From: Trichothermofontia sichuanensis B231
GTDB lineage: Bacteria > Cyanobacteriota > Cyanobacteriia > B231
Length of the DNA: 64,000 nucleotides
Direction of reading: 5' to 3'
NCBI RefSeq assembly: GCF_026240635.1
Contig: NZ_CP110848.1
Coordinates: 2,641,501-2,705,500, forward strand
Each line of letters begins with the position of its first letter. Position 1 is the stretch's first letter. This document shows positions 12,033-14,188 of this stretch, piece by piece. The position numbers and the translations under genes were made by a program. The notes beneath the pieces were generated by a model. The model was not told where the DNA came from. It did no database searches and saw only the letters and a program-made list of their open reading frames with translations.

Positions 12033-13172
12033 GTGCTATTACTCAAAGGCTTTGAAATCGAAATTTATACGGGAACACCGGAAGGACAGATTATTGGCTT
12101 CTCCGATCGCATCACCGCTGACCTGCCCGGTTTTGCACGTGAACCTGACAGCCGTAACGTGGAGTACACTACGCCGCCCTGTGGCCGTTACGAGCAATTG
12201 CTGTGTTATCTAATTAAACCCCGGGTGCAACTGCGAAAGTATTTACAGTCCCTTGGCAACTATACCCTGATTCCTGGAAGTACCCTATCCCTAGGCGATA
12301 GCCACCATTTCTACCGCTCTGACCCGACGCATCCCTACCATACTTACATTGAGCACACCTATGGCACCAAAGTGGTGACAGCCAGTGTCCACATCAACAT
12401 TGGCATCAGTGAGCCAGAATTGCTGATGCGGGCATGTCGCCTCGTGCGGGTGGAAGCTCCCCTGTACTTAGCCCTCAGTGCGGCCTCCCCATTCCTGGAT
12501 GGACAGGTGACCGGGTACCACTCGACCCGCTGGGGTATTTTCCCGAAAACCCCCGCGATCGTTCCCCTCTTTACCAGCCATGCCCACTTTATCGACTGGA
12601 CTGAACAGCAATTAGCCACTGGCACAATGCAAAATGTGCGCCATCTCTGGAGTGCCGTGCGTCCCAATGGCGATCGCCGTCCCTACAGTTTAAATCGGTT
12701 GGAATTGCGGGTATGCGATTTAGTCACTGATCCAATCGCGCTGCTGGCGATTACCGCCCTCTTGGAAGCCCGATTGTGGCAGTTATGCCAGGACGAAACC
12801 CTCGACCCGCTGCAACAGAGCCAACTGGATGCCGATACCCTCGTTACCCTCACCGACGCCAATGAAATGGCCGCTGCCCGCCAGAGCCTAGAGGCAACGC
12901 TGCACCACTGGCAGGATGGCCGGGAGATCTCAGCCCGCCAATGGATCGAACAACTTTATGAGGAAGTAGAAAGCTATAGCCAGCAACGGGGTTTTAAGTG
13001 TTTCCTCTCACCTGTGAAAAAATTACTGCGGGAGGGCAATACAGCCCAACAGTGGTTGCGATCGCACCAGGCGGGTCTGACGATCGCGGAGGTGGTACAG
13101 CAAGCGATCCAGGCCCTAGCTGAACAGGAACAGGAGTTAGCCGGAAATTTGTGCCACCCCCTGGTGGCATAA
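12033..13172 (+). CDS. gshA: Glutamate--cysteine ligase, cyanobacterial type
   Basis: 379 residues from the GTG at 12033, chosen because the family begins at (M)LLLKGFEIEIYTGTP and because GGGGGGAAG lies just upstream; an in-frame ATG at 11979 would add 18 unrelated residues. The enzyme joins glutamate and cysteine, the first step of glutathione synthesis. Family signatures include GFEIEIYTGTPEGQIIGFSD, PPCGRYEQLLCYLIKPR and SVHINIGI. The stop overlaps the possible GTG start of the next gene by 22 bp. Two gamma-glutamylcyclotransferase-type genes elsewhere in the window (42580, 54513) could act on its product. Confidence 0.88.
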   Translation: MLLLKGFEIEIYTGTPEGQIIGFSDRITADLPGFAREPDSRNVEYTTPPCGRYEQLLCYLIKPRVQLRKYLQSLGNYTLIPGSTLSLGDSHHFYRSDPTHPYHTYIEHTYGTKVVTASVHINIGISEPELLMRACRLVRVEAPLYLALSAASPFLDGQVTGYHSTRWGIFPKTPAIVPLFTSHAHFIDWTEQQLATGTMQNVRHLWSAVRPNGDRRPYSLNRLELRVCDLVTDPIALLAITALLEARLWQLCQDETLDPLQQSQLDADTLVTLTDANEMAAARQSLEATLHHWQDGREISARQWIEQLYEEVESYSQQRGFKCFLSPVKKLLREGNTAQQWLRSHQAGLTIAEVVQQAIQALAEQEQELAGNLCHPLVA

Positions 13173-14032
13173 GGATATCCCGACGATGCCGGGGAGGATT
13201 GGCTGAGTTAAGTACCGCGGTTAAAAAAGCAGATATTGGTGGTAAACGGCTGATCGGGTTAGCACCAACCGCGTGGGTCCAGTGGGTCACCCAGCGATCG
13301 GATGTTGTGGCCCAGGAGATTTTGGGGTCAGAGTTCCAGTGGCTGAGCCGGGAAAATGATGTTCTGGTGAAGGCAGTCAGCCCTACCCACGGGGAGTTTC
13401 TGATTCTCAATGAGTTGCAGTTGCGTTATGGAACACGGCTACCGCAGCGAATGCGGGCCTATGCGGCGCTAGCAACGGAGAAGTACAATTTGCCGGTCTG
13501 CCCCGTGTTGGTGAATATTTTGCCGCCGGCGTCAACGGTGCCGATTCAAACTTGCTATGAATCGAGTTTCCTGGGGCTACAGGCACGGCAGGATTATCGG
13601 GTGATTAACCTGTGGGAGGTAGAGGCAGAGATTGTTTTTGCCCAATCATTGCGGGCGTTGTCGCCGTTTGTGCCCATTCTCAAGGATGGGGGTGAGGTGT
13701 CGACGGTGCAGCGGGCGTTGAGGTTGCTGCGGCAGGATGAGCAGTTGGTGGAGTTAGAAGCACTCTTGGCGTTCTTTGCTAGTTTTGTATGGGAGAGCGA
13801 AGTGGTCCGGCAAATCATGAGGTGGGATATGGCAGTGCTACGGGAGTCGCCCTGGTATCAGGAAATTTTGCGCGAAGGCGCACGTCAAGGGGAGCGCAAG
13901 GAAGGTCAATCTTTGATCTTAAAGCAACTGAATCGGCGGCTGGGTGAACTAACTCCTGATCTGACTCTACGGGTGCAGGCGTTGGAGTTGCCACAGCTTG
14001 AGGCGCTGGGGGAGGCGTTGTGGCTCTCCTGA
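13151..14032 (+). CDS. Rpn-family PD-(D/E)XK nuclease with DUF4351 tail, C-terminus replaced by mobile-element insertion
   Basis: Up to 293 residues; start uncertain (GTG at 13151, or TTG at 13199 just after GGGGAGG). The N-terminal half resembles the recombination-promoting nuclease family common in cyanobacteria (KRLIGLAPTAWVQWVTQ, then ENDVLVKA and NELQLRY as the likely acidic and E-x-Q positions). A DUF4351 tail begins near residue 265 (LKQLNRRLGELTPDLTLRVQALELPQLEALGEAL). The last codons (WLS-stop) come from a 112-bp element at 14022-14133. Removing the element and one 8-bp duplication restores LDFTQVEDLVNWLDS-stop, ending at 14188. The nuclease domain itself is untouched. Confidence 0.85.
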   Translation: MPPPGGIRISRRCRGGLAELSTAVKKADIGGKRLIGLAPTAWVQWVTQRSDVVAQEILGSEFQWLSRENDVLVKAVSPTHGEFLILNELQLRYGTRLPQRMRAYAALATEKYNLPVCPVLVNILPPASTVPIQTCYESSFLGLQARQDYRVINLWEVEAEIVFAQSLRALSPFVPILKDGGEVSTVQRALRLLRQDEQLVELEALLAFFASFVWESEVVRQIMRWDMAVLRESPWYQEILREGARQGERKEGQSLILKQLNRRLGELTPDLTLRVQALELPQLEALGEALWLS

Positions 14033-14133
14033 GTTTATGGTGGGGGCGCTACGCGCCCCCACCATAAACTCAACGTTTGCGATCGTTTATTTGTAGTTCC
14101 TGATACTGTTTACCCCAAAATCCTAGAAGAGCC
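14022..14133 (+). mobile_element. 112-bp hairpin MITE with 8-bp target-site duplication (copy 1)
   Basis: Ends are GGCTCT (14022-14027) and AGAGCC (14128-14133). The flanks GGCGTTGT at 14014-14021 and again at 14134-14141 are an exact 8-bp direct repeat. Inside is a long perfect hairpin: GAGTTTATGGTGGGGGCGC paired with its complement up to about 14074. It codes for nothing. A second copy lies inverted at 20919-21028 and a lone right end near 59754. GGCTCTTC-like ends with an 8-bp duplication resemble ISL3-type transposons, which is inference. Confidence 0.93.
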
Positions 14134-14188
14134 GGCGTTGTTGGATTTTACGCAGGTGGAAGATTTAGTCAATTGGCTTGATTCTTAG
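14134..14188 (+). pseudogene. Displaced 3' end of the Rpn/DUF4351 gene
   Basis: Beyond the inserted element the original reading frame continues: after the duplicated GGCGTTGT it reads LLDFTQVEDLVNWLDS and stops with TAG at 14186-14188. This matches the usual end of DUF4351 domains and shows that the insertion is recent enough to leave the orphan tail intact. Confidence 0.9.

Follow-up and report, generated by a model that had tools for sequence, protein, structure and literature searches.

A putative nested antitoxin start in an Rpn-like/DUF4351 gene of the cyanobacterium Trichothermofontia sichuanensis truncated by an ISL3-type MITE

In Microcystis aeruginosa PCC 7806, a 187-nt ISL3-type MITE that contains a stem-loop, has ends of the GGCTCTTC type, and makes 8-nt duplications is present in more than 30 identical copies, one of which lies in the 3′ part of sbp and truncates that gene (PMC11448079). 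In rpn genes, a small C-terminal protein called RpnS is translated from within the gene and blocks the toxic nuclease RpnL, and this C-terminal protein is named DUF4351 in some species (PMC10327210). E. coli and C. difficile are species in which nested antitoxins have been demonstrated. The stretch of T. sichuanensis B231 DNA analyzed here, referred to as the window (64,000 nucleotides), carries a locus that can be compared with both systems. Its features are as follows.

13151–14032, plus strand: host ORF as it stands at present, Rpn-like, with DUF4351 cut to profile positions 2–46; the start is uncertain (GTG at 13151 or TTG at 13199).
13819–13824, plus strand: internal Shine-Dalgarno GAGGTG, with 6 nt from the GAGG core to the nested ATG.
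13829–14032, plus strand: putative nested antitoxin-like ORF, DUF4351 part, 67 aa now and 79 aa before the insertion (precedent in PMC10327210).
14014–14021, no strand assigned: target site duplication, left copy GGCGTTGT, read from the sequence.
14022–14133, plus strand: ISL3-type MITE of subfamily A, 112 bp, assigned from near-identical copies genome-wide and their 8-bp duplications.
14022–14042, plus strand: MITE left end GGCTCTCCTGAGTTTATGGTG, identical to the terminal repeats at either end of L161, a complete ISL3 element of another cyanobacterium.
14030–14032, plus strand: TGA stop contributed by the element, read from the sequence.
14030–14072, plus strand: perfect hairpin with a 20-bp stem and a 3-nt loop TAC (14050–14052); the loop is inverted (GTA) in other copies.
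14109–14133, minus strand: MITE right end, reverse complement GGCTCTTCTAGGATTTTGGGGTAAA, assigned by its likeness to the left (promoter-side) ISL3 end.
14134–14141, no strand assigned: target site duplication, right copy GGCGTTGT, read from the sequence.
14142–14188, plus strand: orphaned 3′ gene end, which codes for most of LDFTQVEDLVNWLDS plus the stop in the joined frame, found by joining the flanks.

Because the published Microcystis MITE causes a similar C-terminal truncation, the window MITE belongs to a known kind (PMC11448079). Both elements are cyanobacterial, end in GGCTCTTC-type sequences, contain a stem-loop, are flanked by 8-nt duplications, truncate a gene in its 3′ part, and have an ISL3 partner that is proposed from the ends, whereas they differ in length (112 nt for the window MITE) and in internal sequence. 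Furthermore, an empty allele is known in Microcystis, as are ISL3 transposases whose ends match, whereas the window MITE is accompanied by a relic only and resides in an Rpn-like host gene (PMC11448079). As an instance of a known process, the insertion is clean but unremarkable. What is new here is the host gene, whose sequence resembles that of an Rpn nuclease gene harboring a nested antitoxin.

An earlier note, made from the letters of the window, had described an element with GGCTCT/AGAGCC ends between exact copies of GGCGTTGT, and upon rereading of the sequence its coordinates, termini, and flanks were all as described. The 112-bp element is non-coding, lacks a transposase gene, and has a folding energy of −50 kcal/mol (z = −7.6). 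An exact 8-bp duplication is expected by chance at a single site with a probability of about 1.5e-5, and exact duplications recur in 46 of the 56 copies sampled, which bears out the note's reading of a MITE with a target duplication. The element thus has the shortness, the ISL3 ends, the 8-bp duplication, and the many dispersed copies of an ISL3-derived MITE.

We consider the following account almost certain as a whole. A non-autonomous ISL3-family MITE moved by transposition into the 3′ end of an Rpn-like nuclease gene, creating an 8-bp duplication; an ISL3 transposase, of which no intact version is any longer encoded in the assembly, would have acted in trans; and the resulting truncation would have shortened the product of the nested start as well. 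The insertion is evident from the anatomy of the element, its copy number, its duplications, the ends it has in common with complete ISL3 elements, and the orthologous empty sites.

The MITE family is large. In the 4.44-Mb genome, which is assembled as one contig with 99.76% completeness, we counted 190 left ends (two mismatches or fewer) versus none for a reversed-pattern control, along with 125 right ends. Near-full copies number 98, with 64 carrying loop TAC and 34 an inverted or derived loop, so the further duplicated copies whose search the note had proposed do exist. They fall into two subfamilies, A (GGCTCTCC...AGAAGAGCC) and B (GGCTCTTC...AGAAGAACC), with exact duplications in 30 of 36 and 16 of 20 sampled copies, respectively. 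Eighteen subfamily A copies share one form (112/112 identical), and the window copy has one identical twin (G000:C1:932694); so many identical copies point to recent transposition. One copy (G000:C1:1867010–1867097) mixes subfamily A and subfamily B bases, which suggests recombination between copies.

Loop TAC and its reverse complement GTA are both present in each subfamily among the copies across G000. Related 112-bp MITEs in G007, a genome of another family, are 76 to 81% related, share the same layout, and have exact or near-exact 8-bp duplications; their loops are TCA and TGA, and paired stem changes convert ATGG/CCAT to AGGG/CCCT (L192–L202). Template-switch loop inversion would be expected to leave such a pattern (PMC8794818), and in the roughly one hundred near-identical copies with a two-way loop, hairpin inversion is naturally recorded many times over.

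The ends shared with a complete ISL3 element identify the element as an ISL3 MITE. The complete element, L161, carries GGCTCTCCTGAGTTTATGGTG at both ends (21/21 identical to the MITE left end) and is flanked by the 8-bp duplication GACTAATC, and these matches uphold the family assignment made in the note. The MITE right end is similar to the promoter-side end of ISL3 elements. In comparison with the insertion sequences L161, L154, and L155, the MITE is alike in its 21-bp end (L161) and 8-bp duplications but has no transposase, and the palindrome that follows its left end is absent from the full elements.

The note had also proposed a search for an ISL3 transposase with matching ends. Such a gene was found elsewhere, in L161, whereas locally there is only a fragment. 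A profile search of the single-contig assembly found no intact ISL3 transposase gene, and the only DDE_Tnp_ISL3 match in this genome covers profile positions 1–87 of 240. Its zinc-ribbon and HTH parts remain recognizable, and the N-terminal part of the L161 transposase is 59% identical to it. The second frame of the relic is displaced relative to intact relatives by a net frame change, and the broken end of the relic carries a subfamily B MITE flanked by the duplication TGACTTAT; the transposase relatives of other cyanobacteria sit within complete elements. Because the sole ISL3 transposase gene is broken, the MITE family looks orphaned in this assembly, although a plasmid may be missing from it.

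Several observations were made on the relic and its group. A lone 50-bp MITE left half, consisting of the end and the hairpin (L042:939–988), directly adjoins the relic element on its left, with no base between them. Also beside the relic is part of a gene for a BsoBI-like restriction endonuclease (L042:569–982, minus strand). In the cyanobacterial ISL3 group (L153, L154, L155, L161, and others, as well as the relic, L042:1053–1836), the transposase is encoded in two overlapping frames, mostly with a −1 offset, and A-runs (for example CAA AAA AAA CAG) occur at the overlap in several members. This arrangement suggests programmed frameshifting in the group, on which a search of one literature library found no paper centered.

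As the note had proposed, the element supplies the present TGA, which lies inside it. Because the MITE carries this in-frame stop, the reading frame now ends 12 residues early and the end of DUF4351 is lost, as the sequence shows. The present protein ends in ...GEALWLS, having lost 15 residues and gained three (W, L, and S, from the junction and the element). When the flanks are joined, the frame reads GEALLDFTQVEDLVNWLDS up to the stop, its tail being ...LEALGEALLDFTQVEDLVNWLDS and the stop a TAG at 14186–14188. The Pfam DUF4351 match, which now breaks off at profile position 46 in agreement with the truncation that the note described, rises upon joining from 52.1 bits (2–46 of 59) to 80.2 bits (2–59). 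The rebuilt C-terminus aligns without gaps to at least seven uninterrupted orthologues (about 66 to 72% identity) with the same ending. The ancestral frame can thus be rebuilt, as had been claimed, with the empty site known from orthologues and the joined frame, not from an allele of the same species. In this comparison with orthologues and in the search for further copies, neither outcome that the note had named as a refutation was observed.

We infer the effect of the truncation on protein function from the sequence: both proteins may still be partly functional, judging solely from the untouched catalytic part, internal start, and repeat helix. Because DUF4351 occurs at 12 other places in the genome, the loss at this locus may be buffered.

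The nuclease label deserves separate consideration. The N-terminal part of the host family is conserved and carries D..ExQ motifs; it is followed by a variable linker of four-residue repeats (GRQE/QQGL, whose number varies among orthologues) and by several C-terminal domain types, including an RpnS/DUF4351-type domain preceded by the repeats. The family is like E. coli Rpn (RpnL/RpnS) in its C-terminal domain (DUF4351 in some species), its four-residue repeats, and a Shine-Dalgarno and start located internally, where the nuclease and C-terminal parts meet (PMC10327210). However, the nuclease part of this subfamily has diverged too far for Transposase_31 or TIGR01784 to recognize it. The nuclease domain of the window protein has no Pfam or NCBIfam match, PADLOC returned no match for the window protein, and the family profile matched no sequence in the PDB. 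Profile comparison with RpnA gave a weak match (E 0.16) in which D..ExQ..RM.YA line up, and one orthologue has a weak TIGR01784 match under the cut-off. The structure model of an orthologue is poor (pLDDT 60.6), with no significant PDB fold match. Of the label given in the note, the DUF4351 part stands; that this divergent subfamily is an Rpn nuclease is plausible, but the sequence does not prove it.

At the boundary between the nuclease and C-terminal parts, the sequence reads ATG AGG TGG GAT ATG, with the second ATG (13829) in frame. Arginine has six codons. The boundary Arg codon is AGG in 66 of 66 orthologues versus 21 of 843 other Arg codons in the aligned region, counts that are not phylogenetically independent; it has zero codon entropy, ranking first of 69 sites with a degeneracy of at least 3. 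The Asp codon is likewise GAT in 66 of 66, and the Met is invariant. Since the orthologue set was gathered partly by peptide patterns that span the AGG site, two controls were used. AGG is present in 14 of 14 loci that lack that exact peptide. Across 390 genomes, strings coding for Ile-Met-Arg-Trp-Asp-Met use AGG in all of the 95 matches listed except three (two AGA and one CGT), versus 35 of 492 other arginines in the scan genes that were fetched (Fisher p 9e-33 for this subset). One of the fetched scan loci (L223) matches by chance, since no long frame contains it.

The pairing energy of the nested Shine-Dalgarno is −10.3 kcal/mol, whereas the mean for the remaining internal starts is −2.5. 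Each of the 66 genes has about 23 candidate internal starts, and the nested one has the strongest Shine-Dalgarno in 39 genes, the second strongest in 24, and the third strongest in 3. Two paralogues in this genome (L213 and L214), which are related to the Rpn model TIGR01784 just below its cut-off, have different but equally strong Shine-Dalgarno and start pairs at the same boundary. By the same measure, the known internal start of E. coli rpnA at codon 244 is apparent. The invariance of AGG and the strong Shine-Dalgarno lead us to infer a nested antitoxin-like protein of 67 instead of 79 residues. A second, separate product consisting of the DUF4351 part is thus probably made from the conserved internal start, as with the intragenic antitoxins of E. 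coli Rpn proteins; the note missed this probable separate translation of the truncated domain. The small protein is probably an antitoxin. If the nested start is real, the insertion would shorten the putative nuclease and the putative antitoxin alike.

Other readings of these data were weighed. The hairpin might be a regulatory or extragenic palindrome of the host, REP- or terminator-like, that is retained for function instead of being a transposon copy. Its perfect pairing and high stability would fit, as would the stem pairing kept through changes on both sides in G007. Copies also shun genes: with 300 bases considered on each side, an open stretch of at least 400 nt spans just 2 of the 46 empty sites that were reconstructed, versus 74% of random window positions. 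However, such avoidance is also expected from selection against damaging insertions together with A+T-rich target choice (the mean G+C of the duplications is 34% versus 55% for the window). A host palindrome is also at odds with the duplications, the fixed 112-bp length, the ISL3 ends, and the absence of a T-run after the hairpin, and we regard it as extremely improbable. For the ISL3 MITE that we prefer, insertion within genes is rare, and the one in the window is tolerated at an extreme gene end. The note had called the element active or recently active. Recent movement is supported by the identical copies, which would also suit a family that is still mobile through a transposase encoded in this strain. 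Present activity, however, conflicts with a sole ISL3 gene that ends early in the DDE profile, has a net frame change, and carries a MITE at its broken end, in an assembly that is nearly complete and in one contig; continued mobility is therefore improbable.

A comparable question concerns the boundary, where the conserved ATGAGGTGGGATATG could be a DNA-level element, such as a recombination anchor for C-terminal domain swaps, and not a ribosome-binding site. The C-terminal domains of orthologues diverge directly after ATGAGGTGGGATATG, as domain exchange would give. Nevertheless, this stretch forms a strong Shine-Dalgarno at optimal spacing ahead of an invariant in-frame Met, and in another Rpn-like subfamily of this genome an equally strong one is formed at the same boundary from other letters (GGGAGGAG and GGGAGGGC). 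There is also experimental precedent in Rpn genes (PMC10327210). We consider a DNA-level role unlikely and retain the nested ribosome-binding site.

It is likely, in our judgment, that cyanobacterial Rpn-like/DUF4351 genes have a deeply conserved intragenic start that would produce a separate C-terminal antitoxin, in a subfamily unrecognized by current Rpn models, and that the MITE here cuts both proteins to give a natural truncation mutant of a gene-within-gene toxin-antitoxin pair. The host gene is more interesting than the MITE, in that its invariant rare codon makes a strong case for nested antitoxins kept across cyanobacteria in a divergent family. The truncated locus represents a natural allele in which the domain common to both putative proteins is shortened.
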